A stretch of DNA of 47,617 nt, taken from positions 1 through 47,617 of the IMG/VR virus record IMGVR_UViG_3300042691_044065. The stretch is one strand, 5' to 3'. Of the stretch, positions 13,197 through 45,092 are shown one piece after another. Under the pieces are notes generated by a model. That model was not told where the DNA came from. It made no database searches and worked only from the letters and a program-made list of their open reading frames with translations. A program made the position numbers and the translations under genes. This stretch comes from a virus. The stretch's first letter is position 1, and each line of letters starts with the position of its first letter.

Positions 13197-13207
13197 GCCA
13201 AATGCTC

Positions 13208-13894
13208 CTAAGAATACTGGTAATTAATTTTACGGCGCCCGGAAACAGGCCCCGGAATCGCCCGAACATAAAGCGTGAACTGGCCTGTGCCAGCGACTGC
13301 CGCCATCAACAGCGAATCCATTTCCGCTTCATCTTCATCATTTGTAGACGAGGCTTCTGCGGACGGAACAACGATGATGTTGTGTGTTGCCACAATGGCC
13401 GCGTCGATTACGGTGATAACAAAGTCGTCATTCGGATCGGCACCAAGATCGATTTCAGCTTCTGTAACCGACAGTGCGCCATTCGTACCGTTGGTGCCAG
13501 CCGCCCCTGTGTTGCCAACACCGACTTCAACCCCGCTGGCATTCAGCACTCGGAAGCCGGCCCCGTCGACGTACTCAACCTTGAAGCCAACTGCCAGCGA
13601 GCCGCGCCACAGGATGCGTTCTGTGCCCGAAACATCGAGCTTAATCGTGACCGTGGCAGCCGCCGTGTCAGCATTATACACACTGACGTAATCAATCAGC
13701 CGTTGCGTGGAAGCCCCAGGCGCTGGCACCAGATTTACATCAGAGGTATTATTCGTGTTTATCGGCGTGTTGCCAGGGACGTAGGTGGTCGTGGTCACAT
13801 CACGCCAAGACGAAAAGCACTGAAGCTGGTTCGTGGCAACAGTTCCACCAAGCACAGCTTGCAACGTTTCTGACGTGGCTTGCAAAACAATCAT
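13208..13894 (-). CDS. Structural protein, 228 aa, with collagen-like turn
   Basis: A 228-aa beta-rich protein. A short Gly-x-y stretch near residues 127-137 (GAAGTNGTNG) resembles the collagen-like linkers of phage fibres. An acidic segment follows near residue 190 (STNDEDEAEMD). Its ATG overlaps the TGA of the preceding gene (ATGA), giving tight coupling. Likely a minor tail or head-decoration protein; no function can be proved. Confidence 0.6.
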   Translation of the reverse strand: MIVLQATSETLQAVLGGTVATNQLQCFSSWRDVTTTTYVPGNTPINTNNTSDVNLVPAPGASTQRLIDYVSVYNADTAAATVTIKLDVSGTERILWRGSLAVGFKVEYVDGAGFRVLNASGVEVGVGNTGAAGTNGTNGALSVTEAEIDLGADPNDDFVITVIDAAIVATHNIIVVPSAEASSTNDEDEAEMDSLLMAAVAGTGQFTLYVRAIPGPVSGRRKINYQYS

Positions 13895-30526: not shown

Positions 30527-31633
30527 ATGGCAACCGACAATCGACAAATGACAAAATGGCAGTCGCGGCAAGAAAAACTCTTGCGGGCGACGACGATAAA
30601 TTCTCTGAAGCCTGAAGCGTGCATGGTACGGGCACGGTACGCTGCCGCCGCGCGTGATGCAGCCTACGGTGAAACGCTGATAAACAATCAGGAAGCCGCA
30701 CTTTATTGTGCGCGCACGGGATCGTATCTCGCGACCGTGAACAATTTCATTTTCGCTGAGCTAGCGCAATTGCCAGCCGACATTACCGGCGAGATGGCAG
30801 ATAACTTTGCGCGGCGCAAACTGTATCATCCGGCCTGGGTCAACCTGAGCCCGGAAATCCTGACCCAATTGCAACGCCTATTTCCCTGCGAGTTTGTTAT
30901 CTATGCTGCGCACGAATTGCAGCATGATAATGACACAACAAACGGAGAGGCTCGGCACGACATTCTGGAATTAGTCAATCTGTGCCGTCTTGAATTGGTT
31001 TGTGAAACCGCTGAACTGTTGCGCCGAATTCTCGCCCTGATTGGCAATTATCAAAACCTCCGCCAATCACCGCTTGCAAACCGCAACGCCGCCGGCATCG
31101 ATCCTGAGATTGCAGCGGCACGGACAACATCTGCCACAATCCCGGCCATCGCCGACTACTTTGGCATCGAAACGCAAACGGCAGATTTAAACAGCGCGAT
31201 GCTCACTTACATTCAGGATTTGAAATCCTATTTTGCAGCGGCGGTCAAACGTTCGCAGGCAGAATACCACGTGCAATCTGCATTCCGCGCGCGGCAGGTT
31301 ACGCTGCAAGATATCAAGCGCGTTACCGTTTCGCTCGGCCGCCAGCAATTCAAGCTCGCCCGCGAAAAAACACCGAACATCGACAACGCAACATTTTACG
31401 ATATCGCTGAACTGTTTGCAGATGAATCCGATCTGACAATGGCAATTACTGCCAAGCAAATGGAAAACACTGAAGTCCGCCGGTATTCTGGCAGCGTGCA
31501 TCACACAAGCAACAGCCAGGCGGGAGCAACACCGCCGACAACCGAACAAACATCAAACGACATCCCGGCCGACGCAACTGCAAGCAATTTGCCGCCCGCA
31601 CCGTTCGCCCTAAAAATCCGGCTTTTCAAATAA
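30527..31633 (+). CDS. Unknown protein, 368 aa, first gene of the replication arm; C-terminal LKIRLFK tail
   Basis: A 368-aa protein of unknown function. It is mostly helical (residues 1-280), with YAAHELQHDND near residue 125 recalling a metal-type HExxH-like stretch, though the spacing is not a true HExxH and I do not call a peptidase. Residues 315-358 are a Thr/Ser/Pro/Ala-rich disordered linker ending in the tail LKIRLFK. The same tail ends the glycosylase-like protein at 34353-34838, and similar L-F-basic motifs end two more replication proteins. The gene is first behind the rightward promoter and 18 nt before the helicase, so a replication or early regulatory role is likely. Confidence 0.75.
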   Translation: MATDNRQMTKWQSRQEKLLRATTINSLKPEACMVRARYAAAARDAAYGETLINNQEAALYCARTGSYLATVNNFIFAELAQLPADITGEMADNFARRKLYHPAWVNLSPEILTQLQRLFPCEFVIYAAHELQHDNDTTNGEARHDILELVNLCRLELVCETAELLRRILALIGNYQNLRQSPLANRNAAGIDPEIAAARTTSATIPAIADYFGIETQTADLNSAMLTYIQDLKSYFAAAVKRSQAEYHVQSAFRARQVTLQDIKRVTVSLGRQQFKLAREKTPNIDNATFYDIAELFADESDLTMAITAKQMENTEVRRYSGSVHHTSNSQAGATPPTTEQTSNDIPADATASNLPPAPFALKIRLFK

Positions 31634-31651
31634 TCCCAAGGTAAAACGAAA

Positions 31652-33445
31652 ATGGCATTCGACATCAAAAAAGCAATCAGCGCGGCCAAGGCCAAAAACC
31701 TTGCAGCGGCGCCCGACAAACCCGCGGCCGTGGCCGACAAATCCGCAGCCACGCGCTCTATTCTATTTGGCACCGGCTTTACAAAGCGTCTTGCAGAACA
31801 GGCGCAAAACGCTGCCGAAAAGCAATCCGAGCAATCCAGCACAATCGTGGCAAAAACTCCAGATGTTGACACGCCGGACAGCCCGGATTTTTTGCATCTC
31901 ACTTTGCCGGACACGTTGTCATCATCGGCAATCGTTCTCGACCCTTCGCAGCAAACCGCAGTTGACGGGCTGATTAACCAGCAATTCGGCTGCCTGATTG
32001 GTGCTGCTGGCACGGGCAAAACAACCACAATGAAAGCTTTGCTTGCCGCACTCATTCGACAAGCCAACGCCGCCGAAAAAACAATCACGGTTGCATTCTG
32101 TGCTTACACCGGCCGCGCCGTCCAGCAAATGAAGCGCGCATTGCCAATCGAGTTTCACAAATACTGCGACACGATACATGGCACGCTGGAATTTGCGCCA
32201 GAAACCATCGAGCAGGAAGTCACAATCGATGGCGAGATTCACATTCAAAATCTCTGGCGTTTCATCGAGCATCGCAATGAAGCAAATCCCTTGGATTGCA
32301 ACGTGCTTATCATCGACGAAGGCGGCATGGTGCCAATCGAATTAATCAACAAGCTTTTCCTCGCTTGCAAGCCCGGCACACGCGTGTACATTCTCGGCGA
32401 TATCAATCAGCTGCCACCGGTTCACGGCCGCTCGGTTCTTCCCTTCGCCATGCTCAAATGGCCGACGTTCGAACTCAACCGCATTCACCGTACCGAAGAA
32501 AATGCAATCATCGACGGCGCGCACGCAATCTTGAACGGCAAAATGCCATCCTCAGTTGACGGTCGCGTGGTCCTGTTGCCAGCGTCCGACGATTCCATCA
32601 AAACCTTTCAGAAAACTGTCCAAGCGGTGCAAACTCTCTCCAACGCTGGCAAGTTTAACTGTCTGTCCGATGCCATCATCGTTCCGCAAAATCGTGGCAC
32701 GCTTGGCCAGGAACATTTCAACGAGCGGCTTTGCTCATTCTTCAACCCAACGCAATACGAAGAAAATCTTCCTTTGAACCCGCGCACCATTATCACGGCC
32801 GGCTCGTTCCATATGTCTTTTGCCGCCGGTGACAAGGTGATGGCCACGAAAAACGACCGCGAGCAAGGCATCACAAATGGCATGATTGGCGTCATCCAAT
32901 CAATCATTTTAAATCCTCGGTTCCGTGGCCAAGTTATCGGCGACCTTGCCGGTGCTTGCCTTGCAGATGATTTCGAACTCGATATCGAGGCCGTCGACGC
33001 CGCTGCTGCCATTGTCGATGCAGCCGATGCAAACGAACTCGCGCAGCAACAGGCATCTCACATCGTCCGTGTCAAATTCCAAAACATCGACGAGCCAATC
33101 GACTTCTCAACAACCGGTGCGATGAACACGCTCAAGCATTCCTACGCGTTCACCTGCCACAAATCACAGGGCGGCGAATATCCCGTTGTGATGATTGTTG
33201 TGCATTCTGCCAACCTGAACATGCTCACGCGCGAATGGTTGTACACCGCGTGGACACGCGCCAGTGGCAAAATCATCCTCATCTACAATTCTCGTGGCAT
33301 CCAGCACGCGCTGAACCGGCAGGCAATCAAAGGTGCCACCCTGGCCGACAAAGCCAAAGTTTTCCTCGAACTCATGGACCGGCAACTCAAGGGCGAAAAA
33401 ATCGAAACGCCGAATCTTCCCGAACCCGTGGAAATCAAGGAGTAA
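31652..33445 (+). CDS. RecD-like SF1 DNA helicase, 597 aa
   Basis: A superfamily 1 helicase of the RecD/TraA type. Residues 1-90 are a disordered Ala/Pro/Lys/Ser-rich region that includes RSILFG (35-40). The motor follows: Q-like motif LDPSQQTAV (97-105), Walker A GAAGTGKTTT (117-126), DEGG of motif II, GDINQLPPV of motif III, and C-terminal TCHKSQGGEYP and YTAWTRA motifs of the UvrD_C_2-like part. It would unwind duplex DNA 5'-3' during replication or recombination. It lacks the N-terminal barrel of full-length RecD2. Neighbouring Cas4-like nuclease and Sak4-like ATPase support a recombination-linked replication module. Confidence 0.88.
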   Translation: MAFDIKKAISAAKAKNLAAAPDKPAAVADKSAATRSILFGTGFTKRLAEQAQNAAEKQSEQSSTIVAKTPDVDTPDSPDFLHLTLPDTLSSSAIVLDPSQQTAVDGLINQQFGCLIGAAGTGKTTTMKALLAALIRQANAAEKTITVAFCAYTGRAVQQMKRALPIEFHKYCDTIHGTLEFAPETIEQEVTIDGEIHIQNLWRFIEHRNEANPLDCNVLIIDEGGMVPIELINKLFLACKPGTRVYILGDINQLPPVHGRSVLPFAMLKWPTFELNRIHRTEENAIIDGAHAILNGKMPSSVDGRVVLLPASDDSIKTFQKTVQAVQTLSNAGKFNCLSDAIIVPQNRGTLGQEHFNERLCSFFNPTQYEENLPLNPRTIITAGSFHMSFAAGDKVMATKNDREQGITNGMIGVIQSIILNPRFRGQVIGDLAGACLADDFELDIEAVDAAAAIVDAADANELAQQQASHIVRVKFQNIDEPIDFSTTGAMNTLKHSYAFTCHKSQGGEYPVVMIVVHSANLNMLTREWLYTAWTRASGKIILIYNSRGIQHALNRQAIKGATLADKAKVFLELMDRQLKGEKIETPNLPEPVEIKE

Positions 33446-33721
33446 ATGCAAGTGCGTTTTCAAATCCGCGAAACTTATTATAACAAAGCCGGCAAAAAGT
33501 GTTTCATTCACTACAGTGCCACCTATCCAACACGCGCTGATGCCATTGCGCAAGTGTTTGAATTCATGCGCGGCGACCGGAATTTCTTCGCGCTCGAATA
33601 CAGCGACCCCGAATCAGCCGCCGAAATACAAACCTGCACATACACCGTGCTTTCTCATGATGACGCCGGCTGGCGTTCATTTGTTCCTCGTCTCAACAAC
33701 AACCTGAGCATCCTCATATGA
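33446..33721 (+). CDS. Small protein, 91 aa, unknown
   Basis: A 91-aa protein with AAGGAG just before the ATG (the site overlaps the helicase end) and an ATGA overlap with the next gene, so it is firmly part of the operon. The sequence is beta-rich (MQVRFQIRETYYNKAGKKCFIHYSA type pattern) with a helix near residues 30-45. No family recognised; no catalytic motif. Confidence 0.7.
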   Translation: MQVRFQIRETYYNKAGKKCFIHYSATYPTRADAIAQVFEFMRGDRNFFALEYSDPESAAEIQTCTYTVLSHDDAGWRSFVPRLNNNLSILI

Positions 33722-34203
33722 TTGACAACGACAACGACGCGGGTGATTTTGGTAACATGGGCGTCAACCTCATGCACGTTCCCGAATCCACCGCTTACAT
33801 TTTCACGTTCGAAATCAACAACGCTTTCAAATCCTACAACGCATATGGCAGCACCGACGACGCCGGCCGCATCCGTATGTATTCCTTTGAAAAGGTCTAC
33901 TTCATCCAACTCATCCGTGTCTTGCTCAACGGCTGCGGTTTGAAGGAAGCTAAGGACTTGGTTGAAAACGGTGGTCAGCCCCACGTCCGCGCGCGTGACC
34001 CGGAAACCGGCGAAGATTGGCACATTTTTACCGTTCGCATCAACAATGCGGAAACTGCCATGCGCATCATGTGTTTCCTGCTCAAAATCATAACCGCGCA
34101 CAACCGTGACGAGGCCATGCGCACGGAACTCAACCAGAATTTCAACATTCGCAACGTCAAGATGCAGACGCTCAAGAACCTGGACTATTTCACCATCGGG
34201 TAA
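33718..34203 (+). CDS. Unknown protein, 161 aa
   Basis: A 161-aa protein starting in an ATGA overlap with the 91-aa gene and followed 41 nt later by an intrinsic terminator, so it ends the first early transcription block. It has an acidic N-terminus (MIDNDNDAGDFG), a mixed alpha/beta body, and helices near residues 60-80 and 110-130. No recognised domain. Confidence 0.7.
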   Translation: MIDNDNDAGDFGNMGVNLMHVPESTAYIFTFEINNAFKSYNAYGSTDDAGRIRMYSFEKVYFIQLIRVLLNGCGLKEAKDLVENGGQPHVRARDPETGEDWHIFTVRINNAETAMRIMCFLLKIITAHNRDEAMRTELNQNFNIRNVKMQTLKNLDYFTIG

Positions 34204-34244
34204 GCTGCCCGGCGGTTCGCCGTTCTCATGTCGATGCCATCTTT

Positions 34245-34272
34245 GGGGAGCCACGTGCTCCCCGCTTTTTTT
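34245..34272 (+). terminator. Intrinsic terminator after the 161-aa gene
   Basis: A 7-bp perfect stem GGGGAGC / GCTCCCC with a 5-nt loop is followed by GC and seven T. It separates the helicase block from the repair and Cys-rich small-protein block. As no clear promoter follows, it may act as a partial attenuator. Confidence 0.82.
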
Positions 34273-34285
34273 AGAAGGAGAACAA

Positions 34286-34435
34286 ATGCGGTTCCTGCGC
34301 GGTTCCGGACTCCCTAATAACACCATTACAATTTACGAGACAATTGCCAGCCATGCAAACTTTTCTTCCGTTCCCAAATTTTCAAGCTTCCGCCCGCGTG
34401 CTCGATTCCACGCGTCTGTGGAAGCAACTGCTTGA
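34286..34435 (+). CDS. Possible 49-aa leader-type ORF overlapping the glycosylase gene
   Basis: ATG 34286 has an excellent ribosome site (GAAGGAG, about 5 nt spacing) right after the terminator. The frame runs 49 codons and overlaps the first 83 nt of the glycosylase-like gene in another frame. The glycosylase ATG itself has no ribosome site. This ORF may therefore be a coupling peptide whose translation opens the downstream start. Its amino-acid sequence is not distinctive after residue 25. Confidence 0.35.
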   Translation: MRFLRGSGLPNNTITIYETIASHANFSSVPKFSSFRPRARFHASVEATA

Positions 34436-34838
34436 GGCGCGCCAGATTTTCACGGCCCTGTCGAATCCCACATACGGATGGCAACATCATTCCGCAGTCC
34501 AAATGTGGCGCGGCTACCGTGGTGGATTGCATCGTTATGCAGCCCAGATTTATTACGAGTGCATCCAACGTGGCATCGACGCCGGTGAGGAATTTGGCAA
34601 GTTCACCGCGCTCGTTGTCGACTACGGCATCATCAAACACGCCGATTACAACGAGCAGCCATTCTGGCTTGGCCGCGAGGAATTCCATCGTTCCCACCAG
34701 TCCAACCTAATCCGCAAAGATCTTTGTTTCTACCGGCCCCTGTTTCCCGGCGTGCCAAACGATTTGCCATACGTCTGGCCACACCCGCTTACCAAACCTG
34801 ATGGCACCTACGAACTTAAGATAAGGTTATTCAAATGA
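34353..34838 (+). CDS. Pyrimidine dimer DNA glycosylase-like protein (MSMEG_6728 type), 161 aa
   Basis: The start MQTFLPFPNFQASARVLD with RLWKQ, then YGWQHHSAVQMWRGY and a following Tyr-rich helix, is the pattern of MSMEG_6728-like proteins, annotated in the pyrimidine dimer DNA glycosylase (T4 endonuclease V-like) family. Such enzymes would start base-excision repair of UV lesions. ATG 34353 fits this family's N-terminus better than an in-frame TTG three codons earlier. The classical catalytic Thr2 of T4 endonuclease V is not at that position here, so activity is uncertain. The extreme C-terminus, YELKIRLFK, matches the tail of the 368-aa protein. The next gene starts in an ATGA overlap. Confidence 0.75.
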   Translation: MQTFLPFPNFQASARVLDSTRLWKQLLEARQIFTALSNPTYGWQHHSAVQMWRGYRGGLHRYAAQIYYECIQRGIDAGEEFGKFTALVVDYGIIKHADYNEQPFWLGREEFHRSHQSNLIRKDLCFYRPLFPGVPNDLPYVWPHPLTKPDGTYELKIRLFK

Positions 34839-35023
34839 TCTGGTATCTCATCGTCCACTCCCTGATTTCCGTCTCTCCCAACACGCCGGCGCAACCCACG
34901 TGGACACGGCTGGGTCCCTACACCTACGAAACGTGTGACAAATACGCGCAGGAATTGCTGGCGCAGAAGAAACTCATTCTTCTCTCCGAACCTGTCTGCG
35001 AAATGGAACCGATTCCGGAGTAA
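34835..35023 (+). CDS. Small protein, 62 aa, possible secreted or membrane-associated
   Basis: A 62-aa protein starting in ATGA overlap with the glycosylase-like gene. The first 14 residues are hydrophobic (MIWYLIVHSLISVS) and could be a weak signal or anchor. The rest is polar with two Cys (ETCDKYAQELL, PVCEMEP). No family recognised. Confidence 0.65.
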   Translation: MIWYLIVHSLISVSPNTPAQPTWTRLGPYTYETCDKYAQELLAQKKLILLSEPVCEMEPIPE

Positions 35024-35028
35024 AACAG

Positions 35029-35433
35029 ATGCCCCGCGCCTTCCACACCGGCTATCTTTTCCGCACATGCCAGCGATGCTACAACATTGGTCATTGCAAA
35101 GCGTCAGCCACAAACTCGTGCGAAACGCTCAAGCGCGTCTATGTTTGCCTCACTTGCAAGCATCGCTGGCATACTGTGGAAATCCGTGTCGATTCTTATA
35201 ACGCTGACCCGTCCATTGTGCCTATCGCAATGACAACGGCATTCAAACTTTCATTTAAATACAAAGGATATGACCTATCCCTCATCCCAATCGGTGACTA
35301 CATGACAATTCCATACGACATGTGTAAACGTTCTGGATTGGAAAGCAAGCAAACCAAAATTAATAAAACTGGGCTCATGCGCATCCGGCTGCGCTACATG
35401 ACCACCGGCATTCGAGTACACCGCGATGCGTGA
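35029..35433 (+). CDS. Cys-rich (zinc-ribbon-like) protein, 134 aa
   Basis: A 134-aa protein with a Cys-rich N-terminal third: CQRC near residue 14, further Cys at about 23 and 31, and CLTCKHRWHTVEIR at about 40-53, a classic zinc-ribbon strand. The remainder is basic and ends with a helix-strand segment (MRIRLRYMTTGIRVHRD). Zinc ribbons often bind DNA or polymerases, so a transcription or replication factor is possible. GGAG precedes the ATG. It overlaps the next gene by 8 nt. Confidence 0.7.
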   Translation: MPRAFHTGYLFRTCQRCYNIGHCKASATNSCETLKRVYVCLTCKHRWHTVEIRVDSYNADPSIVPIAMTTAFKLSFKYKGYDLSLIPIGDYMTIPYDMCKRSGLESKQTKINKTGLMRIRLRYMTTGIRVHRDA

Positions 35434-35734
35434 TTATTTTGACAGAGCCACATTTTCCGACAAGCCGCGTCTGCCAATTTGCTGTGACCGTTGCCGTATT
35501 ACAATTGGCTGGGCCACATACGACGACTCAACCGCTTGGCCCAGCATCATTTGCAACCTGTGTCTTGCCGACGAAGCCAACCTCTGCACAATCTTTGGCA
35601 TCTACGCCACGCACTTGTATGCCAACCCCATCGCGTCCGAATCTCACAACAACGAGATGCGCGCCCGAATCGAGGCTTCCAGCCGGTTATTGGCAATGCT
35701 GAATCACATTGAGATTCTCCTCAAAACCGGTTGA
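35426..35734 (+). CDS. Second Cys-rich protein, 102 aa
   Basis: A 102-aa protein with CCDRC at about 19-23 and CNLC at about 43-46, giving a probable four-Cys zinc site, followed by a helical half (residues 70-102). It overlaps the 134-aa gene by 8 nt and ends inside a promoter (35731-35759). It does not align obviously with its neighbour, so two independent small zinc-binding candidates lie side by side. Function unknown. Confidence 0.68.
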   Translation: MRDYFDRATFSDKPRLPICCDRCRITIGWATYDDSTAWPSIICNLCLADEANLCTIFGIYATHLYANPIASESHNNEMRARIEASSRLLAMLNHIEILLKTG

Positions 35735-35759
35735 CAACACGTAACTAACACGATAGTAT
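35731..35759 (+). promoter_or_regulatory. Internal rightward promoter
   Basis: A perfect TTGACA (35731-35736), 17-nt spacer and TAGTAT (35754-35759) stand 27 nt before the next ATG. Same element pair as the early promoter at 30415-30444. It would drive the nuclease, Sak4-like and ssDNA-binding genes separately from the helicase block. Confidence 0.7.
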
Positions 35760-35785
35760 CACGTTATTCCCGTGGAGCCACTTTA

Positions 35786-36151
35786 ATGATTGCCAAACAA
35801 CGTCTTATCGAATTCCTGCGAGCAGCGCGCACGCAGCCAGACACGCCATTCACTTTCACACTCGACATGCAACCGCATGATGCCAAGGTTTACATTCATC
35901 GTATGCGTGTCGAACTCGGTCGCTTTCGTTCCGCGTTGCAAGAACGCGGCGAACGCTTGCGCCGATTCAAAATGCTGGTTCGCGAAGTCATTCCCGATTC
36001 TCTCGAACCAAACAAAACCCACGTCACGCTGCAATATTATCTTCACGGCAGCCGCACCAAACTCGACAACGACATCTCCGAAGTTTTCGAGTTGGTTGCA
36101 ACTGGTGACAAACGACTTGCGCCCGAGGTGACAAATGTCAAAACTCAGTGA
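35786..36151 (+). CDS. Unknown protein, 121 aa
   Basis: A 121-aa protein, first behind the internal promoter. It has a helical N-terminus (MIAKQRLIEFLRAAR), a beta part, a strongly basic helical middle (RMRVELGRFRSALQERGERLRRFK) and a C-terminal mixed part. The basic helices suggest nucleic-acid binding. It overlaps the next gene by 17 nt. No domain recognised. Confidence 0.7.
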   Translation: MIAKQRLIEFLRAARTQPDTPFTFTLDMQPHDAKVYIHRMRVELGRFRSALQERGERLRRFKMLVREVIPDSLEPNKTHVTLQYYLHGSRTKLDNDISEVFELVATGDKRLAPEVTNVKTQ

Positions 36152-36713
36152 TTTGCTAGCGAAAAAAGCCGCAGCCCCGAACCTTGCCGAGCCTGGCAGC
36201 CCCGCCCCTGCCCCTGCTGCCAAACCAGTTTCGTTTGCTGACAAATTCAAGCAGACAGCCGCCGTTGCCAAACATCAGGCGCAGCTCGATGCCAGCCAAG
36301 CCTTATCCGCCGGCATGTCGAATCAATACGTGCCGCCACCGTCTGCACCGCTGGAAGATTTCCAAAACTTCGAAGTCGAATTGACTGCCGATGTGACCAC
36401 GTGGCCGGATGATGGCAGCAACGCGTATCCCGACAAGCAACAGGCCGCGCTTCGCCAGCATCTCGCATACGTTGGTAAGTGTCTAAACACGGATGAGATT
36501 TCCGACGCGCTCATTCGCTGTATGCAATTCATCCACGAAAACCCGGCCATGAAAGACTTGCTTTTGCCGGCCGATGTGGGCCTTTTGGTTCAGGCTCTCA
36601 GCTCGTCTGCCAACGTGGTTGTTGCACGCAAGAATGAGAACAAGTCCACGGCCACCAAACGCAAAGCCATTGCCGCCGAGGTGATGAATGACCTCGCTGA
36701 TCTCGGATTCTAA
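36135..36713 (+). CDS. Unknown protein, 192 aa, in the recombination block
   Basis: A 192-aa protein with a Pro/Ala-rich disordered region (residues 10-60), a central acidic part, and a helical C-terminal domain ending NDLADLGF. The acidic tip ending in Phe is reminiscent of SSB-type C-terminal tips, but the resemblance is weak. It lies 12 nt before the Cas4-like nuclease. Function unknown; a DNA-replication accessory is likely by location. Confidence 0.68.
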   Translation: MSKLSDLLAKKAAAPNLAEPGSPAPAPAAKPVSFADKFKQTAAVAKHQAQLDASQALSAGMSNQYVPPPSAPLEDFQNFEVELTADVTTWPDDGSNAYPDKQQAALRQHLAYVGKCLNTDEISDALIRCMQFIHENPAMKDLLLPADVGLLVQALSSSANVVVARKNENKSTATKRKAIAAEVMNDLADLGF

Positions 36714-36725
36714 AGGCAAGCAAAC

Positions 36726-37682
36726 ATGGATTACAACCTTCCATTCCTTGCTCTCTCAGATTCCTCCGTTAATTCTCGTTATCGGTCTTGCCGGCGCAAG
36801 TTCGAGTTTAACAAACTCTACGGTCATAAACGAGCCGAGCGAGAGGACTCCCTTCCTGCCGACGCGGGGTCCGCATTGCATCGTGCCTGGCAAGCCTACA
36901 TGGCAGAGAAATCCAAAGCACGGGGAATTGAAGAACTCCTTTTTTCTTACCCCGTCCACCTGCAAAAATCCTCCATGCAGGAGCGGTCACTCGAAGCCTG
37001 TTACACGACATTCTTAGAGATGGTTGCCAATCCTTTGCACGGCCGCTACGAACTGGCGACCGTTAAAGTTGGCAACGAGATCAAGCCGGCCGTGGAAGTC
37101 CCGTTTCGCATTAACATTGCAAACGTCAGCCTGTCCCACGATCGCATGGTTCCGATTTACTGGGACGGTTTCATCGATGCCATCATGTGGGATACGCTCG
37201 AACTCCGCTATGTTGTGGTCGATTTGAAAACCACCCGCAAAAACGAGCGTGATTACACGGCCATGTTTGGCAACGACCCGCAGACATTGCCGTATGCTTA
37301 CGTTGTGGAAAAAGCCACCGGCCAAACCGCCGCATCCGGGCTCGATGTAATCTATCTTGTTGCATACGTGGACCATTTGTTTCCGCGCGTCCAGCAACTC
37401 CCGCTCCACAAAACCGAGCACGATATTTCTTCATGGGCATTCGGTTTGGCAATGGATATTCAGGCCATCCGTCACATGGCAGATATCGGATTCTTTCCCA
37501 AAGACGGGAAATCCTGTGTTGGTTACGGCGCCTGCCAGTACCTTGATGTTTGCAGCTACACGGAGCCAGCTGCCATTCGTGAGTGGCTGGACCTGCGATA
37601 CGGTCCGCCCGACTACGAAACCGTGCTTGCCGATTTCCAACCCTGGTTTACCATCGACCTTACAATCACAGGTTTATCATGA
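36726..37682 (+). CDS. Cas4/RecB-type PD-(D/E)XK nuclease, 318 aa
   Basis: A PD-(D/E)XK exonuclease of the PDDEXK_1 / RecB-Cas4 type. Motifs in order: AGSALHRAW (His52), VEVPF (Glu124), GFIDA (Asp151), VVDLKTT (Asp166-x-Lys168) and QTLPY (Gln186, Tyr190). Cys22, Cys264, Cys270 and Cys276 match the four-Cys layout that holds an iron-sulphur cluster in Cas4/AddB-like nucleases. It probably resects DNA ends to give single strands for the Sak4-like and ssDNA-binding proteins downstream. The next gene starts within its stop (ATGA). Confidence 0.88.
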   Translation: MDYNLPFLALSDSSVNSRYRSCRRKFEFNKLYGHKRAEREDSLPADAGSALHRAWQAYMAEKSKARGIEELLFSYPVHLQKSSMQERSLEACYTTFLEMVANPLHGRYELATVKVGNEIKPAVEVPFRINIANVSLSHDRMVPIYWDGFIDAIMWDTLELRYVVVDLKTTRKNERDYTAMFGNDPQTLPYAYVVEKATGQTAASGLDVIYLVAYVDHLFPRVQQLPLHKTEHDISSWAFGLAMDIQAIRHMADIGFFPKDGKSCVGYGACQYLDVCSYTEPAAIREWLDLRYGPPDYETVLADFQPWFTIDLTITGLS

Positions 37683-38104
37683 GCAAAAATCCTGCTGGCC
37701 CAATTTCCATCAACCCCGATCTTATTTCGGATGATGCGAAAGCATTGATGCAGAAGAAAGATTTCCATTTCGACTGCCCGGTGTTCAAAGACTACATTAT
37801 CCCGAACGGTTTCCTCACCCGTGACGCGGCTTGCCACGCGTTGTTTTATTACGCCGTGTTGGCGCGCCGCGCATACGAAGAAAACGTGGAAGGCTGGGCC
37901 ACACAATACGAAGGGAACCTTTCCAACACAACCGATTTCTTCCAGCTTTACCTGTCGATTGCATTCATGTACGGCGTCACGCCCGAAGCGATGCAGCGCC
38001 ACTGGTCCAATGTCGATATGCAATTCACGGTCTTGCAGATTCCAGCATTGCCAAAAGAAAACCGTTACCGGCACGACAGCGTTCCGGAATTCAAAACACA
38101 GTAG
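37679..38104 (+). CDS. Unknown protein, 141 aa
   Basis: A 141-aa protein; ATG 37679 in ATGA overlap with the nuclease stop fixes the start. Mixed sequence rich in aromatic residues (FHFDCPVF, ALFYYAVLARRAYEE, FFQLYLSIAFMYG), largely helical. No domain recognised. Probably an accessory of the recombination genes, based on coupling only. Confidence 0.7.
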   Translation: MSKNPAGPISINPDLISDDAKALMQKKDFHFDCPVFKDYIIPNGFLTRDAACHALFYYAVLARRAYEENVEGWATQYEGNLSNTTDFFQLYLSIAFMYGVTPEAMQRHWSNVDMQFTVLQIPALPKENRYRHDSVPEFKTQ

Positions 38105-38114
38105 GAGAACCAAA

Positions 38115-38357
38115 ATGAAATTCAGATTGAATGTGATATTTCTTCTTGACGTTCCGACGGAAGATTACGATTTTTCTACGCATGACACGGAACAAACGGC
38201 GGAAGAATTCATGCTGGAAATCGAACGCGAAAACATTATGGAAAACGGTATTGCCGAATACGTGACTGACGTGGCATGTGCATTTCCTGTTGAACTGTGG
38301 ACGCTCGAACCGGTTGTCGATGAGAATGATGCCGCGCCGACAACGGTGGACGAATAA
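38115..38357 (+). CDS. Small acidic protein, 80 aa
   Basis: An 80-aa very acidic protein (many Asp and Glu), with AGGAG 7 nt before ATG 38115. The pattern is beta-helix-beta with an acidic tail (DENDAAPTTVDE). Small acidic phage proteins often mimic DNA or inhibit host enzymes, but no homology supports this here. Confidence 0.65.
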   Translation: MKFRLNVIFLLDVPTEDYDFSTHDTEQTAEEFMLEIERENIMENGIAEYVTDVACAFPVELWTLEPVVDENDAAPTTVDE

Positions 38358-38361
38358 TCCA

Positions 38362-39372
38362 ATGCCATCCGCCAACCAATTCCTTGCCGAGGACGACGTG
38401 CTTCGCCTCTTTCTGTACGGTCCTGCCAAATCACGCAAAACGTGGTGGGCATTGAAGGCAGCAGAAGCCGGCTTCCGTGTTCTTTTGTTCGACTTCGAAC
38501 GCGGTGCCAGCATCGTCACGCAAATCGATCCGAAGGCTCGCGAAAACATCTTCATCATTGGAGCCCACGATGCGCCGACAGACGCCTACGCAATCATGTT
38601 TGCAACAGCCGCGCTCAAAACTCACGAGTTCTACTTCGATGAGGCCACGCGCCGAGTATCCTTTAACAAAGGAAAGGGACTGGCCCGCTGTGATATGCGC
38701 GAGTTTGGCCGTGATACTGTTGTTGTGTTTGATAGTTATACGTCACTCGTTGTAAGCGCGGCCAGGCAATTCGCATTTCAAAATGCCATCGACCTGTCAG
38801 ATGCCAGCAAGCAATCGTGGGAAGGCTACCGCTGGTGCGGTGCGTTGATGACGTGGTTGCTCACGCAAATCAAACTCCTCAACTGCCACACGATTACCAT
38901 CGGCCATGAAACGCAATACGAGAAATTCAAAAAGCACCCGACGGATCCGAATAAACAAGGCCCGCTTGAGTGGTCGCGGCGGCAGCCAGCATCCGTGTCC
39001 AATCCCCACGGAATGGGAATCACACAGCATTTTACAGACATTCTGTACTTCCACGTGGCAGGTCGAACTGCTAAAATCGATACTCGTGGCAATAAGCTTG
39101 AAGAAGCCGGTGGCCGTCATATCCCGCCTGCCGAGTATGAGTGGGAAAAGCTTAGCTTTGCAGACGTATGCGAAATGTCAGGCTTTGGGCTACCTTCCCA
39201 CGTCGAACCTTTCAACTTCCCAATCGAAGAAGGATTGCAAATAGGAGGTGCCAAACCACAAACCCAAAACGTTCCCGTAGCCCCGCAACCACCAATCATT
39301 CCTGTTTCCACACAAGCGGAAGTGCAACCGCTGTCCAACAAACGCACATCAATCCTGTTCAAAAAATCGTAA
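38362..39372 (+). CDS. Sak4-like RecA-fold ATPase (AAA_24 type), 336 aa
   Basis: A 336-aa single-domain RecA-like ATPase. The P-loop at residues 20-27 is GPAKSRKT, with Arg replacing the usual Gly before Lys. VVVFDSY is the Walker B region. The pattern LLFDFERG after the P-loop and the size are typical of Sak4 / AAA_24 phage recombinases, which load on ssDNA and anneal or exchange strands. Residues 290-328 are a Pro/Gln/Val-rich linker ending with TSILFKKS, one of several L-F-basic tails in this arm. The probable ssDNA-binding partner is two genes downstream. Confidence 0.82.
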   Translation: MPSANQFLAEDDVLRLFLYGPAKSRKTWWALKAAEAGFRVLLFDFERGASIVTQIDPKARENIFIIGAHDAPTDAYAIMFATAALKTHEFYFDEATRRVSFNKGKGLARCDMREFGRDTVVVFDSYTSLVVSAARQFAFQNAIDLSDASKQSWEGYRWCGALMTWLLTQIKLLNCHTITIGHETQYEKFKKHPTDPNKQGPLEWSRRQPASVSNPHGMGITQHFTDILYFHVAGRTAKIDTRGNKLEEAGGRHIPPAEYEWEKLSFADVCEMSGFGLPSHVEPFNFPIEEGLQIGGAKPQTQNVPVAPQPPIIPVSTQAEVQPLSNKRTSILFKKS

Positions 39373-39383
39373 GGAGAACTGTC

Positions 39384-39593
39384 ATGCGTGTTCGAAGCCT
39401 CATCAAGTTGCTGATGGATTGTGAGATGGATGCCGCAGTTGTCGCCGTCAACCAGAATGGCACCGGCGATGAATTCATGGATCCCACCAACGTTGCAAAG
39501 CTGGTGACAGACGCGATGAATCTTGACGACGGCAGCGTTGTCATCTACTTTGCGGGGGAGCCGTCCGACAGCGATGATGCCGACGCCGGCTAA
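39384..39593 (+). CDS. Small acidic protein, 69 aa
   Basis: A 69-aa protein with AAGGAG 7 nt before ATG 39384. It is acidic, with a helix at the N-terminus (MRVRSLIKLLMDCEMD) and an Asp/Ser-rich end (GEPSDSDDADAG). Pattern suggests a compact alpha/beta fold. Function unknown; it is sandwiched between the Sak4-like and the ssDNA-binding candidate genes. Confidence 0.65.
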   Translation: MRVRSLIKLLMDCEMDAAVVAVNQNGTGDEFMDPTNVAKLVTDAMNLDDGSVVIYFAGEPSDSDDADAG

Positions 39594-39599
39594 GTTCAA

Positions 39600-39619
39600 A
39601 ACCAACCAACCAACCAACC
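39600..39619 (+). repeat. Five tandem AACC units in the leader of the ssDNA-binding gene
   Basis: AACC is repeated five times just upstream of the 188-aa gene. A complementary GGTTGGTTG lies at about 40242-40250, just after the same gene and before its terminator. The two could pair in the mRNA, bringing leader and trailer together. Confidence 0.7.
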
Positions 39620-39647
39620 AATCTTTTCTTTCTTTAGGAGAATACAA

Positions 39648-40214
39648 ATGTCCGACGAATTGCTTTCGATTATCATGGCCGGTGAGACGGCCGCTGTCAG
39701 CCTCGAAGATCTGCTGAGCATCGACCTGAACGATGTTGAAGAATTTCGTGGTGGCGAAACGCTGCCGGAAGGCATCTTCGAGTGGCGCATCAAGACGGCG
39801 ATCATGGACGTTGCCGAAGTGAATGACAAGGAGCTCGGCCAGAAGGTTCGCCGCGCGCGTGTCATGTTCACGCTGGAAGCGATTGCTTGCCGGCAGGTCA
39901 AGGACATGGCAATCGACAAGGACTCGCTGGTTGGCGCCGAGTTCAGCGAACGCTTCTTCATCAAGGATGCGCTCAAGGATATCGGCCGCGTGAAGTCGTT
40001 TCTTGTTGACATTGGTATGCAGGGTTCCGGCCCGCTGCAGCAGCTGCTCGATGCTACCATTGGCCACGAGTTCGTTGCCGGCATCAAGCACACCAAGGAC
40101 AAGAATGACACGTCCCGCGTGTATGCCAACCTGGACCAGAAAACCATCAAGCCGCTGGGTGGTGAAGCCGCGGCCCCTGCCCCCGCGAAGCCGGCTCTGT
40201 TTGGCAAGAAGTAA
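39648..40214 (+). CDS. Probable ssDNA-binding protein (DUF669-like), 188 aa
   Basis: A 188-aa protein with a strong ribosome site (AGGAG) and its own terminator, suggesting high expression. The body has the feel of DUF669-type phage ssDNA-binding proteins: an EGIFEWRIK strand, VMFTLEAIACRQV, a central LKDIGRVKSFLVDIG segment, and a late GHEFVAGIKHTKDKNDTSRVYANL. The end is a Pro/Ala-rich linker followed by PALFGKK, a short tail like those of other proteins in this arm. It would coat single-stranded DNA for the Sak4-like ATPase and the polymerase. Family assignment is by pattern, not certain. Confidence 0.7.
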   Translation: MSDELLSIIMAGETAAVSLEDLLSIDLNDVEEFRGGETLPEGIFEWRIKTAIMDVAEVNDKELGQKVRRARVMFTLEAIACRQVKDMAIDKDSLVGAEFSERFFIKDALKDIGRVKSFLVDIGMQGSGPLQQLLDATIGHEFVAGIKHTKDKNDTSRVYANLDQKTIKPLGGEAAAPAPAKPALFGKK

Positions 40215-40558: not shown

Positions 40559-40660
40559 ATGAGTTTCTGGTCGTTTCTCTGGCGAACCACGCTCTATTGG
40601 CTCGGCATTTCCTGCCTGTTCGCCCTTGTTCTCCATATCCTTGGCATCATAATCATATGA
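40559..40660 (+). CDS. 33-aa membrane peptide coupled to the DNA polymerase start
   Basis: A 33-aa ORF, almost wholly hydrophobic and aromatic (MSFWSFLWRTTLYWLG, then a Leu/Ile-rich end), predicted to be a single membrane helix. Its TGA overlaps the polymerase ATG (ATGA). As the polymerase start has no ribosome site of its own, reading this peptide probably allows polymerase translation. Its own ribosome site is weak. Either a functional membrane miniprotein or a translational coupling device. Confidence 0.5.
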   Translation: MSFWSFLWRTTLYWLGISCLFALVLHILGIIII

Positions 40661-43236
40661 AAATTCTATATCTCCACGACGCCGGGTTCACGCCCGGTCT
40701 GCAAGGAGTGTTCAAAGAATACGCGAAGAAAGCCCAGCTGGATTGGCAGCCGTTTGAGTTTGCCAATCTCACGCATGGGATGGCAACCCAACCGACCAAG
40801 ACCAAACTCATGGCGAACCCGCTTCGCCGCAACGAATTCTTTTCCCGGCTCACCCAGGCAATTGCCAGCCTCCAGCCAAAGTTGATTGTAATCAACGACT
40901 GGGTTGCGCTGGAATACATCACGACAACCTACCGGTCCCTCGACACCACGCGTGGCGGCGTTTACTTTGTGAATGGCATCCCGGCCATCGTGCTCGATTC
41001 GTTTCGAACCACGGGCGGCGGCTCCAAAATCAAAGCCGTACCACACATGGGATGGTTGATGTTGCAGGACTTGAAAAAACTCAAGAGGTGGTTCAGTGGA
41101 ACTCAACGAAGAGAACCTGTCTTTGATTATGAGACGGTGGATACTGTCGAGTCATTCAGATCATTTGCCAATGATTTCCGGAAAAGTGTATGCATTGGCA
41201 TGGACATTGAAACATCCGGACGTGGTACGGGCTGCATCATTACGTGCTCGGGTTACTCTTTGTTGCAGCCTGATGGACGCATCCTTTCACGGACCGTTCC
41301 ATTCATGGACCCCATTGCTCCAAATGGTGCTCACTGGTCAGCCACCGAATTTCATTACATTCTCACAGAACTCGCGGCACTCCACCGATTGCCAATCCCG
41401 AAGGTAATGCAAAATGGAACATACGACGCACACCATTACGTCCGTTATCGTATGCCGCCGGCTCACTACCTTTTTGACACGGCTAATGCGTTCCATGCAC
41501 TCTGGCCTGAAGCTCCGAAGCGTCTCGATTTCATCAGTTCTATTGCCTGGGACCACTATCGGTTCTGGAAAGATGAAAATAAAGCCGATGAAAAGGATGA
41601 CAATCAGACTGACCGAGTCCCTAACACTGCAGATGGATGGTTCCGATACCTGCGATATTGTGGTCTCGACTGCCATTATACACTGGGTTCTGCCGTCTAT
41701 CTTTTTTCGATCCTTGCGGCAGTCCCCTGGGCAATGGAAAACTTTCGGCAGAGCTTCAGACAATCCATCGGGCCAGGCCTTGCAATGTCGCTTCGTGGAG
41801 TACGAGTAAACAAAGAAATCCAAACCGGGTTTGAGTACCACAATATTTCCGAATCTGAGAAAGCCAAACGTGATATGGCTGCCATGACCCCGGGCTTGGA
41901 CTTCAATCCGAACTCGCCGGCGCAGGTTGCCAACCTTATCTATGATATCTGCCGGGCTCAGCCGCTTCCCAAGCGTGGAAAAAATCGACCTACAAAACGT
42001 GAAAAGAAACCTTCCGACGAGAACCGTTCCACGAACGAGAAAGACTTGGAAGTTATCACCACGCAGCATCCGTTGCTTGACGTGTTGATTAATCAGATTT
42101 GGGATTGCAAGAAGCCTGCGAACAACGCTTCGAAGTACGGGCGCAACGGCCTTCAACTTATGAATGACAGATGGATGTACAAGCTGTCGCCAATCGGAAC
42201 TGAAACCGGGCGATACGCTTGCAAGGCATCCGACTTCTGGGTGGGCACGCAAATCCAAAACGTTCCCTACGAAATGCGCCCGATGGTCGAGCCAGACCCG
42301 GGCTACATTCTTTTCGATTTCGACTATTCCAAAGCAGACTTCTGGCACACGGCATTTGCATCCGGCGAGCCAGACATGATTAAGGTAGCCTCCGATGCCG
42401 AACTCGACGTCCACTGCTACCATGCCAGCAAATTCTTCTCGAAGCCATATGACGAAATATATTCGGGCTATCGAAAGAAGGAACCGTGGGTTGTCGACTC
42501 CCTCCACGGAGTCCGCCAAAATGCTAAACGAATTGTTTATGGCGCTAACTATCTCATGGGTGGTTATACACTATTCATCACTATGGGTAAACAAGCAGTT
42601 GACGCAACAGCTATCGCGATGGGGCGAAACATTGCCAACTGGAGTATTAAAGACTACTCACTATTTTGCCAATCGTTGCTGGACTTTTACTTTGAACAGA
42701 TGTATCCCCGTCTCCTCTCTTGGTTAGAGGAAACCGTTTCAGCCGTATCCCGCCGAGGGAATCTGGCCGTTTGCTGCGGGGGACGCACTCGAAGTTTCTT
42801 TGCCGATCTTATCACGGACAAAGGTTCCCAGCGAGAACTCGCTGCATTTTACGGCCAGGGTGGTACTGCCTGCACCATCAATACCGTACTCGACAACGTT
42901 TACTACGAACGAAAAGACAGCCAAGATTTGATGTTGCTGTTCCAGGTCCACGACTCCGTGGTTGGGCAGGTTCGCGAGGACAAATTGCATCTTCTCAAAG
43001 ACTTGCGCAAATCGATGATGATTGAGAATAAGATTAACGAACACAAGTTTACCATTCCGGCAGAAGGCGCAGTTGGTTATGGATGGGGATATCGCATGAC
43101 CGACTGGCATGAAAACATTACTCTTGAAGAAATCAAAAAGGCGGATGAAAAATGGAGAAGCAAGAATACACACCTGTTGTCATCCTCATCGCAGGATACG
43201 CACGAGCTGGAAAAGATACGGTTGCTGGTTATCTAG
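40657..43236 (+). CDS. Family A DNA polymerase with 3'-5' exonuclease and UDG-like N-terminal domain, 859 aa
   Basis: Start at ATG 40657, overlapping the stop of the 33-aa ORF. Residues 1-165 resemble a degenerate uracil-DNA-glycosylase-fold domain (PKLIVINDWVALEYIT, TRGGVYFVNGIPAIV, WLMLQDLKKLKRW). The 3'-5' exonuclease follows: DIE (Asp183, Glu185), NGTYD (Asp257), YCGLD (Tyr334, Asp338). Polymerase motifs are A (Asp556 in DYSKAD), B (Arg620, Lys624, Tyr628-Gly629) and C (His765-Asp766-Ser767, where most family members have HDE). This is the replicative polymerase. Its last 85 nt overlap the kinase gene. No 5' nuclease domain or separate primase gene is visible. Confidence 0.92.
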   Translation: MKILYLHDAGFTPGLQGVFKEYAKKAQLDWQPFEFANLTHGMATQPTKTKLMANPLRRNEFFSRLTQAIASLQPKLIVINDWVALEYITTTYRSLDTTRGGVYFVNGIPAIVLDSFRTTGGGSKIKAVPHMGWLMLQDLKKLKRWFSGTQRREPVFDYETVDTVESFRSFANDFRKSVCIGMDIETSGRGTGCIITCSGYSLLQPDGRILSRTVPFMDPIAPNGAHWSATEFHYILTELAALHRLPIPKVMQNGTYDAHHYVRYRMPPAHYLFDTANAFHALWPEAPKRLDFISSIAWDHYRFWKDENKADEKDDNQTDRVPNTADGWFRYLRYCGLDCHYTLGSAVYLFSILAAVPWAMENFRQSFRQSIGPGLAMSLRGVRVNKEIQTGFEYHNISESEKAKRDMAAMTPGLDFNPNSPAQVANLIYDICRAQPLPKRGKNRPTKREKKPSDENRSTNEKDLEVITTQHPLLDVLINQIWDCKKPANNASKYGRNGLQLMNDRWMYKLSPIGTETGRYACKASDFWVGTQIQNVPYEMRPMVEPDPGYILFDFDYSKADFWHTAFASGEPDMIKVASDAELDVHCYHASKFFSKPYDEIYSGYRKKEPWVVDSLHGVRQNAKRIVYGANYLMGGYTLFITMGKQAVDATAIAMGRNIANWSIKDYSLFCQSLLDFYFEQMYPRLLSWLEETVSAVSRRGNLAVCCGGRTRSFFADLITDKGSQRELAAFYGQGGTACTINTVLDNVYYERKDSQDLMLLFQVHDSVVGQVREDKLHLLKDLRKSMMIENKINEHKFTIPAEGAVGYGWGYRMTDWHENITLEEIKKADEKWRSKNTHLLSSSSQDTHELEKIRLLVI

Positions 43237-43790: not shown

Positions 43791-45092
43791 ATGAGCTTGG
43801 ATTTCGACAAGCTCTCAAACCCGTTCCTACGTTTGCATTTACGATATGTTGAGAAAACCGAGCCACCACGAATCTTCCACGTGTGGTCCGCAATCACAGC
43901 AATATCAGCTGCAATGCAGCGGCATGTATATCTAGATCTGGGGTTTGGGCGGCTGTATGGGAACTTGTACGTGTTGCTTGTGGGGCCACCCGGCACCCGT
44001 AAGTCAACTGCCATCAAGTTTGCAACTAAAATTTTGCGGAACTCCACCAGTGTGCGATGGGCGCCGGATGACACAGGTGGACAGCGGCAGGGTTTGATTG
44101 CAGCCTTGACAGAAGATGATGACACGGTGGAAGGCATGGACGTGGCAGATGCGTTGGATATCGAGAAGCTGATGAACGCGCAGGTCACGCTTAAAAATGT
44201 TGACCAGCATGTCATGTTTGTGGAGGCCGGCGAGTTTGGAAGTTTCATCGGCCAGAACAGTTTGGACCTGACTCGCTTTCTCATCAAGATGTGGGACGGC
44301 GAGGATTACGTTTACCGTTTGAAAACCTCGCGGCATGTGTTGAAGGATAACCTGATGACGCTTCTCGGGGGTACCACGCCAACCGATATTGCCAGCCTTC
44401 TGCCAGCCGAGGCGATTGGACAGGGTTTCATGTCGCGATTTGTTTTGGTCTACGCGCCAGCGAAAGAAAAGCAGGTGCCGCCATCCGAAGCAATGGTTGA
44501 CGTCGACGTGGAATCCCCGCTCGGTAGCATATATGCCAACGTGTTTTACAACATGAATGGCGGCATGACCCTGGCGGCGGATGCCCAGCGACTCCTTGAC
44601 CAGCTCTATTTGCACGAGGTGAAAATCCACGACACGCGGTTTATCTATTACGCGGAAAGGAGGCAGACCCATCTTCTAAAGACGTGTATGTGTTTGGCAG
44701 TTGCACGCGGCTCGATGAAAGTTGAGATGGTTGACGTGGAAGAAAGTCAGCGGATTCTGCACGCGACCGAGCAGCGAATGCCGGAAGCGTTGGGAGAGTA
44801 CGGGCTTTCCCCGGTGGCAGTTGCCCGGCAGAAGATGCTGGAATATCTGCGCCACGCAAATGAGCCGATAAGTGAGCGCGTGTTGTGGGTGGTGATGCAG
44901 CGGGACATGAAGCTGATTGATTTTAAAAACAGTCTGTCGGCTTTGATTTCTGCGGATAAAGTTTCGCCTCTCGACACGCCCAGCGGCCGCATGTACCTGT
45001 ACAATGACGGCGTGAAAAGGCTGTTGGCATCCATGGATGAAAACGTGCTGGACGCGTTAATCGGGGATGAAGAATCGAGGACATTGCAATGA
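43791..45092 (+). CDS. DUF3987-type replicative helicase-like ATPase, 433 aa
   Basis: A RecA/AAA-type ATPase. The start region has FHVWSAITAISAAMQR. The P-loop at 65-72 is GPPGTRKS, with Arg in place of Gly before Lys, and the Walker B is VMFVEAGEF (Glu). LLGGTTP is a sensor-like motif, and GFMSRF near residue 220 is a possible arginine finger. A C-terminal region (about 340-430) looks like winged-helix DNA-binding. These features fit DUF3987-family phage proteins, thought to be helicases. As no DnaB-like helicase or primase is present, this may be the fork helicase. AGGAG precedes the ATG. Confidence 0.75.
   Translation: MSLDFDKLSNPFLRLHLRYVEKTEPPRIFHVWSAITAISAAMQRHVYLDLGFGRLYGNLYVLLVGPPGTRKSTAIKFATKILRNSTSVRWAPDDTGGQRQGLIAALTEDDDTVEGMDVADALDIEKLMNAQVTLKNVDQHVMFVEAGEFGSFIGQNSLDLTRFLIKMWDGEDYVYRLKTSRHVLKDNLMTLLGGTTPTDIASLLPAEAIGQGFMSRFVLVYAPAKEKQVPPSEAMVDVDVESPLGSIYANVFYNMNGGMTLAADAQRLLDQLYLHEVKIHDTRFIYYAERRQTHLLKTCMCLAVARGSMKVEMVDVEESQRILHATEQRMPEALGEYGLSPVAVARQKMLEYLRHANEPISERVLWVVMQRDMKLIDFKNSLSALISADKVSPLDTPSGRMYLYNDGVKRLLASMDENVLDALIGDEESRTLQ

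Follow-up and report, generated by a model that had tools for sequence, protein, structure and literature searches.

Four early DNA-metabolism proteins of a virus recorded in IMG/VR (IMGVR_UViG_3300042691_044065, whose 47,617 bases are the stretch analyzed here, the window) end in a short hydrophobic-basic peptide, and peptides of the same class recur in related phages. These tags are concentrated in few early protein families, are kept through sequence divergence, and tend to agree in spelling within a phage. Judged from sequence, they are probably tethered docking peptides for one common, predicted partner. A first-pass annotation of the window had listed five carriers of such a motif; the observation is real and beyond chance, four of these carriers stand, and the true set is larger. 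All comparisons were made among phage records, where related phages are those of the PaP2/Tiera-like group, mostly from IMG/VR (loci with L numbers), with open reading frames (ORFs) called by a simple in-house codon-usage script. The early DNA-metabolism proteins of the window are encoded on the + strand of its right arm (30.5-46.8 kb), the remainder of the window being mainly minus strand. The four carriers and their tags, with lengths in amino acids (aa), are:

30527..31633, + strand: 368-aa protein of a family encoded upstream of the helicase, with a conserved [IL]YCxxTG near the N-terminus; C-terminus PAPFALKIRLFK
31610..31630, + strand: LKIRLFK, C-terminal tag of the 368-aa protein, after a Pro/Ala-rich linker
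34353..34838, + strand: pyrimidine-dimer glycosylase-like protein (PF03013) with an 18-residue C-terminal extension; C-terminus DGTYELKIRLFK
34815..34835, + strand: LKIRLFK, C-terminal tag of the glycosylase, identical as a peptide to 31610-31630 and written in other codons
38362..39372, + strand: Sak4-like RecA-family ATPase (single-strand annealing; AAA_24) with a Pro-rich C-terminal linker; C-terminus NKRTSILFKKS
39346..39369, + strand: TSILFKKS, C-terminal tag of the Sak4-like ATPase
39648..40214, + strand: OB-fold single-stranded DNA (ssDNA)-binding-like protein (SSB) with an Ala/Pro-rich C-terminal linker; C-terminus PAKPALFGKK
40191..40211, + strand: PALFGKK, C-terminal tag of the SSB

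Within the last eight residues, LF[KRG] is found in 4 of 22 early and 0 of 30 late proteins of the window, compared with 19/2770 (0.69%) in related phages (binomial P=1.5e-5). As the first-pass annotation had it, the 368-aa protein and the glycosylase share the exact C-terminal 7-mer LKIRLFK, and the translations likewise bear out the ends given for the Sak4-like ATPase and the SSB. In 27,719 comparisons of two C-termini from one locus, a 7-mer was shared in just one further case, an apparent tandem gene duplicate in PaP2. The two LKIRLFK copies read CTA AAA ATC CGG CTT TTC AAA and CTT AAG ATA AGG TTA TTC AAA; they differ at 6 of 21 nucleotides, every change being synonymous, which rules out a plain DNA repeat or regulatory element and suggests that selection has acted on the peptide. 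A repeat search did not have LKIRLFK among the repeat families it listed. The Pro/Ala/Ser-rich linker said to precede the motif in most cases is seen in three of the four carriers; the exception is the glycosylase, with a short extension only (HPLTKPDGTYELKIRLFK). Each of the four tags is basic, with K or S as its last residue.

The glycosylase tag is best seen as an add-on. The PF03013 domain itself is clear (64.7 bits; cut-off, 23), and relatives are encoded at 54 viral loci, in 53 of which the C-terminus is readable; none of these 53 homologues has an LKIRLFK-type tag or a terminal LF. Most of them end 1 to 5 residues past a conserved PYVWP, a minority carrying other, unrelated extensions, while the window enzyme runs on past that point. 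On its sequence, a widespread repair enzyme has here been given the heptapeptide that also ends a core protein of the phage.

Comparison of C-termini among homologues had been proposed as a check: the tag class recurs in the Sak4 and 368-aa families and is absent from the viral glycosylases checked and from most SSBs. In the 368-aa family, for which an iterated profile recovered 19 other members, tails include GADLFKKKES, GNMLFAKKES, GLQLFRKLTD, LTALFSKSK, and TAFFKKVE, as well as GLSFLAKKKAS, PAFLLKKATS, FTSFGKKGA, and DFGKKN; a few members lack a tag. Together with its PaP2 gp56 branch, the family matches LF.?[KR] in 5 of 37 cases, against 0.3 expected from shuffling. The Sak4 proteins of relatives end in PSILKS (L008), GLSGLFKGG, GLGGLIKK, TLAGLIKK, SLFKKG, SPFQDLFKK, TLLFGK, SFLAGLKKK (PaP2), or PLSLKEKLALKSQ (Tiera). 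L008 holds the nearest Sak4 homologue of the window; the folded domains are 59% identical, the linkers are left unaligned by BLAST, and both proteins end in SIL(F)K(K)S. In Sak4 homologues without a tail, a closing LFK (PSLLELFK) is where the folded domain ends, and it was left out of the tag counts. In the SSB the tag is local, near relatives ending in GLAGIRR (L008) and GLAIGGRK (L222).

Beyond individual tails, we compared motif counts with shuffled sequences. A strict hydrophobic-basic plug at the C-terminus (C-plug) after a disordered linker, disorder being defined here by composition, was observed 15 times against 2.2 in shuffles for Sak4, 6 against 0.6 for the 368-aa family, and 4 against 1.1 for the helicase; the SSB gave 1 against 1.1, other early proteins 7 against 5.6, and late proteins 2 against 1.9. 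At N-termini, the linker motif was found 30 times against 1.0 in a family represented in the window by a 192-aa protein and 39 times against 3.1 in the helicases. Counted anywhere in a low-hydrophobic context, the motif again stood out in the helicase (27/3.7, observed/shuffled), the 192-aa family (20/1.5), Sak4 (15/1.8), and the 368-aa family (4/1.1), with other early (14/11.6) and late (18/12.1) proteins as controls. The excess is thus about 3- to 30-fold in four core families and little or none in late and other early proteins, so that the tags behave as a short linear motif, in excess over shuffles within its classes and without such excess in the control classes.

These counts bear on an explanation that does without docking, in which Lys-rich, slightly hydrophobic ends protect disordered C-termini from proteases, or merely reflect composition or chance, LKIRLFK having been copied by an old recombination. 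A C-terminal Lys is common in bacterial proteins and the tails are degenerate, as this explanation would have it. However, late and other early proteins have equally disordered ends with little or no excess, the same signal appears at N-termini, and the purely synonymous differences between the LKIRLFK copies point to constraint at the protein level. We therefore regard it as improbable.

Tags also tend to be spelled alike on unrelated proteins of one phage. An example is given by L288, with SPFQDLFKK (Sak4), NPFAGIF (368-aa family), PAFAGMGN (SSB), NPFANLAKAL (192-aa family), and PSFADLL (helicase). Other spellings are those of L093 (AFKFG, KFVFGRK, FTSFGKK), L291 (FKLNIK, IKLNIGK, LKLNK, KFKLG), and L094 (GLSFLAKKK, GLGFLMKKK, SLAFLKK, GLSGLFKGG). 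Within the window clade, tag similarity inside a phage exceeded the permutation expectation (P=2e-4; 363 cross-family pairs). In a wider set, the Sak4 tail was closer to the 192-aa family linker of its own phage than to those of other phages (P=1e-4, n=31), with a weaker result for the helicase (P=0.037). Against the whole proteome of the same phage, the Sak4 tail gave P=4.5e-4 overall, a value driven by phages with SLAEKLALKK tags and in which the window is not outstanding. Shared spelling on unrelated proteins, changing jointly, would fit a common receptor that changes too.

The fifth carrier proposed by the first-pass annotation, the helicase, did not hold up in the form claimed. The features concerned are:

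31652..33445, + strand: Dda/RecD-like superfamily 1 (SF1) helicase with a disordered N-terminal linker (Pfam AAA_30, UvrD_C_2; PHROG Dda-like helicase, 8e-60)
31754..31771, + strand: RSILFG, helicase residues 35-40, start of a conserved xGTG[ILF]TK block; outside the tag set

At this site homologues read DDILYGTGITKR, VDLRGTGITKR, VNLRGTGLTKR, TSILHGTGLTK, or DALYGTGLTQR; GTG-x-T is conserved but the F is not, which places RSILFG outside the tag set. Helicases of relatives do carry tag-like segments, both N-terminal (MANLAALLAKSQAAK, MSLAFLKKQ) and C-terminal (SLAFLMAKKKG, GLGFLMKKKV, SIGALLKKQ). At two loci (L089:1841-4813 and L092:2188-4767), the helicase reaches 860-990 aa because its N-terminus bears a large additional region, after which come several tag-like segments.

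A further carrier is the 192-aa protein, whose family is present in nearly all relatives:

36135..36713, + strand: 192-aa protein with a disordered, tag-bearing N-terminus, a small helical core, and a C-terminus that in the family usually ends hydrophobic
36135..36173, + strand: N-terminal tag MSKLSDLLAKKAA, equivalent of MGLAEILAAKKAKA or MSLKNLLALQKQK in homologues
36222..36254, + strand: second tag-like segment KPVSFADKFKQ, equivalent of KPLTFAEKMALKK inside the linker of homologues

Apart from PHROG 14764, which has no function assigned, this family has no known family match. Of 111 members, 89 have L, F, or I as the last residue, often preceded by acidic residues, with a K-rich linker further upstream; such ends resemble the tails of SSB or T7 gp2.5 (examples, L014:4079-4396 and L006:6791-7078). 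The family may for this reason be a second adaptor. Also in Tiera, an uncharacterized protein (Tiera_039, L004:9156-9593) bears the tag MTTFKEKLAAKLAG at its N-terminus and ends in DDMDDDIPF, a copy of the bacterial SSB tail. An AlphaFold model of the L019 homologue places isolated helices at residues 3-14 (LAEILAAKKAKA), 50-59 (within PLTFAEKMALKKQQ), and 198-207 (within FSNPEEVQAVFDEL), with 10-residue mean predicted local distance difference test (pLDDT) values of about 64-81, 79, and 79-85, respectively; apart from the helical core, the chain is otherwise disordered. Predicted helices of this kind in a disordered chain are typical of segments that fold on binding.

Alternatively, the tags might be amphipathic helices that pair among themselves or pack on the helical core found in the 192-aa family, gathering the early proteins into a cluster that needs no separate receptor. 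Tags of the SLAEILAAKKAA type are predicted to be helical, and the 192-aa family combines up to two tags with a helical core and, often, an acidic end. Yet a stable coiled coil would need more residues than the shortest tails (PALFGKK, SILFKKS) provide, the L019 model holding both tag and core has a predicted template modeling (pTM) score of 0.43, and a fold search with the core of a 192-aa homologue gave no significant match. A cluster of this kind seems unlikely to us. The 192-aa profile weakly resembles the TFIIS N-terminal domain (TND; E 0.1-0.3), which is likewise a small helical receptor domain for disordered motifs; the match is not significant, is mixed with designed helical bundles, and has no fold match behind it.

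If the tags dock, on what do they dock? The first-pass annotation had named the host beta sliding clamp, and degenerate clamp-binding motifs could indeed tie these proteins to it, and the clamp would then serve the phage's family A polymerase as well. In SILF, IRLF, GADLF, GLQLF, and QDLF, the x-L-F core is similar to the clamp pentapeptide; among the early proteins searched, no clamp gene of the phage was recognized; and the consensus QL(S/D)LF is said to accept variability (PMC9690074), by which the clamp is no more than disfavored. Against it, Q-[LMI]-x-[LM]-[FL] occurs in none of 276 tails and termini (128 Sak4 tails, 109 helicase termini, 39 tails of the 368-aa family), nor did these yield Q-[LM]-x-[LM]-[FL] or the hexapeptide Q-[LM]-x-L-x-[FL]; in 112 polymerases, the Q-anchored motif is found twice against 9.8 expected. 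Many spellings in relatives have no LF at all (SLAEKLALKK, KLNIGK, FVFGRK), and a strongly conserved host pocket should not yield phage-specific spellings. The clamp thus lacks support and is a doubtful candidate, a phage-encoded partner being more likely. The phage hub that the first-pass annotation gave as its alternative fits better, candidates being the polymerase (40657-43236), the DUF3987 primase/helicase (43791-45092), the SSB core, and the 192-aa family core.

Replisome docking codes are already known as a kind, of which these tags would be a variant. Like the bacterial beta-clamp motif, they are short tethered peptides with x-L-F, at termini or in linkers of unrelated DNA enzymes, suggesting one hub; unlike it, they have no Gln-anchored form, often lack LF in relatives, and are spelled phage by phage. 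In T4, the phage-encoded gp45 clamp is a hub for peptides on the polymerase gp43 and the nuclease RNase H (PMC3012046). A shared hub bound by short peptides is common to both cases, whereas the tags here occur on helicase, annealase, and repair proteins rather than polymerase, and inspection of the tails by eye found no PIP box (Qxxhxxaa with two aromatics, as defined in PMC3012046). In HK620, Sak4 requires the last six residues of its SSB and is recruited by the acidic SSB tail (PMC5928155). Such SSB-tail hubs (E. coli DDDIPF, HK620 NDYPPF, the acidic domain of T4 gp32) similarly gather annealase, helicase, and repair proteins through short terminal peptides, but in the present case it is the partners that carry the peptide, whose character is mostly basic-hydrophobic. 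None of the four tags is an acidic tail with a terminal Pro-Phe or hydrophobic residue of the SSB C-terminal (SSB-Ct) type, and most inspected SSBs of this phage group lack an acidic tail.

Several points weigh against a docking code. The tag sequences are degenerate, most SSB homologues lack a tag, with no C-plug excess in that class, and the L019 model leaves docking of the tag on the core unsupported. Only 3 of 15 family pairs fall below 0.05 in the spelling test of the window clade, and agreement between Sak4 tails and the 368-aa family is not significant in the wider set. Moreover, the motif patterns were written after part of these phages had been viewed, which makes the counts only partly out of sample; in loci L221-L298, fetched after pattern design, the tails are by eye of the same kind. 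An unbiased expectation-maximization (EM) motif search over the full set of termini settled on a generic helix N-cap pattern, which was of no use here, and literature searches found no description of the motif.

As for the identity of the carriers, no Pfam, PHROG, or PDB relative was found for the 368-aa protein, whose assignment to DNA metabolism therefore rests on position and tag. The Sak4-like protein has a RecA-fold ATPase core with Walker A (AAA_24, 2.5e-8); it matches PHROG 1366 only weakly, while its homologues in L005 and L094 match PHROG 124, 'Sak4-like', at 8e-25 and 3e-8. The deposited partial record of EBPR podovirus 3 shows an interrupted Sak4-like gene (L006:9344-10041), which it annotates as a misc_feature. 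The predicted structure of the SSB shows an OB fold (AlphaFold pLDDT 90.7), and a Foldseek search gave PrgE (2.1e-4), RPA, and SsbA as best PDB matches; we consider it a putative ssDNA-binding protein. In PaP2, two adjacent called ORFs (L005:12488-12991 and 13035-13538) are identical in their last 12 residues (NHRVSNVVAIPQ), by which an SSB-like gene may be tandemly duplicated. Sak4 and SSB relatives were recovered with alignments; scans with the single proteins gave no matches. PDB sequence searches, run with profiles of the 368-aa family, the 192-aa family, and the SSB, produced no functional match that was significant.

The wider setting is that of a divergent phage group. The window polymerase is 27-28% identical to those of Polaromonas phage Tiera, EBPR podovirus 3, and Pseudomonas phages PaP2/119X, and 39-54% identical to those of closer IMG/VR relatives (L008, L009, L010, L062). 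Gene order is largely kept, running from helicase through 192-aa family, PD-(D/E)XK nuclease, Sak4-like ATPase, OB-fold SSB, and family A polymerase to DUF3987 primase. At 43152-43236, the window polymerase has a Ser-rich C-terminal extension, lacking in the nearest relative L008, that ends in ELEKIRLLVI and is reminiscent of YELKIRLFK; it may be accidental, since it is an other-frame reading over the start (P-loop) of the deoxynucleoside monophosphate (dNMP) kinase gene at 43152. A 161-aa protein (33718-34203) weakly matches the ribosomal protein L7/L12 C-terminal domain (3.6e-4, under the curated cut-off).

Taken together, a common recruiting code, as the first-pass annotation had suggested, finds support and is broader than claimed, given same-class tags on homologues, four core families, agreement within phages, and gain of a tag by the glycosylase. 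We infer that the tags bind, that their partner is single, and that it is phage-encoded. The tails would be short docking peptides on flexible linkers, recruiting the Sak4-like annealase, the 368-aa protein, and the 192-aa protein to one common partner at the site of phage replication and recombination; the helicase would be recruited too in relatives, and the SSB and the captured pyrimidine-dimer glycosylase in the window phage. As for the partner, it would be encoded by the phage and change as the tags do, unlike a conserved host protein. With somewhat less than even confidence, we extend this to a large group of phages, the PaP2/Tiera-like ones and their relatives, in which the address code may be specific to each phage: a single receptor, encoded by the phage and drifting together with its set of tags, would gather the helicase, the annealase, two uncharacterized core proteins, and accessory repair enzymes, and new enzymes would join by gaining the local tag. 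The window glycosylase, whose tag is absent in relatives, suggests such recruitment.

If true, this would provide a handle on how replication, recombination, and repair are assembled in little-studied phages, including the Pseudomonas PaP2-like ones, through one receptor and a peptide code readable from sequence. Early proteins such as those of the 368-aa and 192-aa families could be assigned to the replisome from their tails, and the glycosylase would show how a captured enzyme is wired in via a seven-residue tag. In addition, the evolution of interaction codes could be studied in these phages, which would supply a natural collection of peptide-receptor pairs that co-vary.

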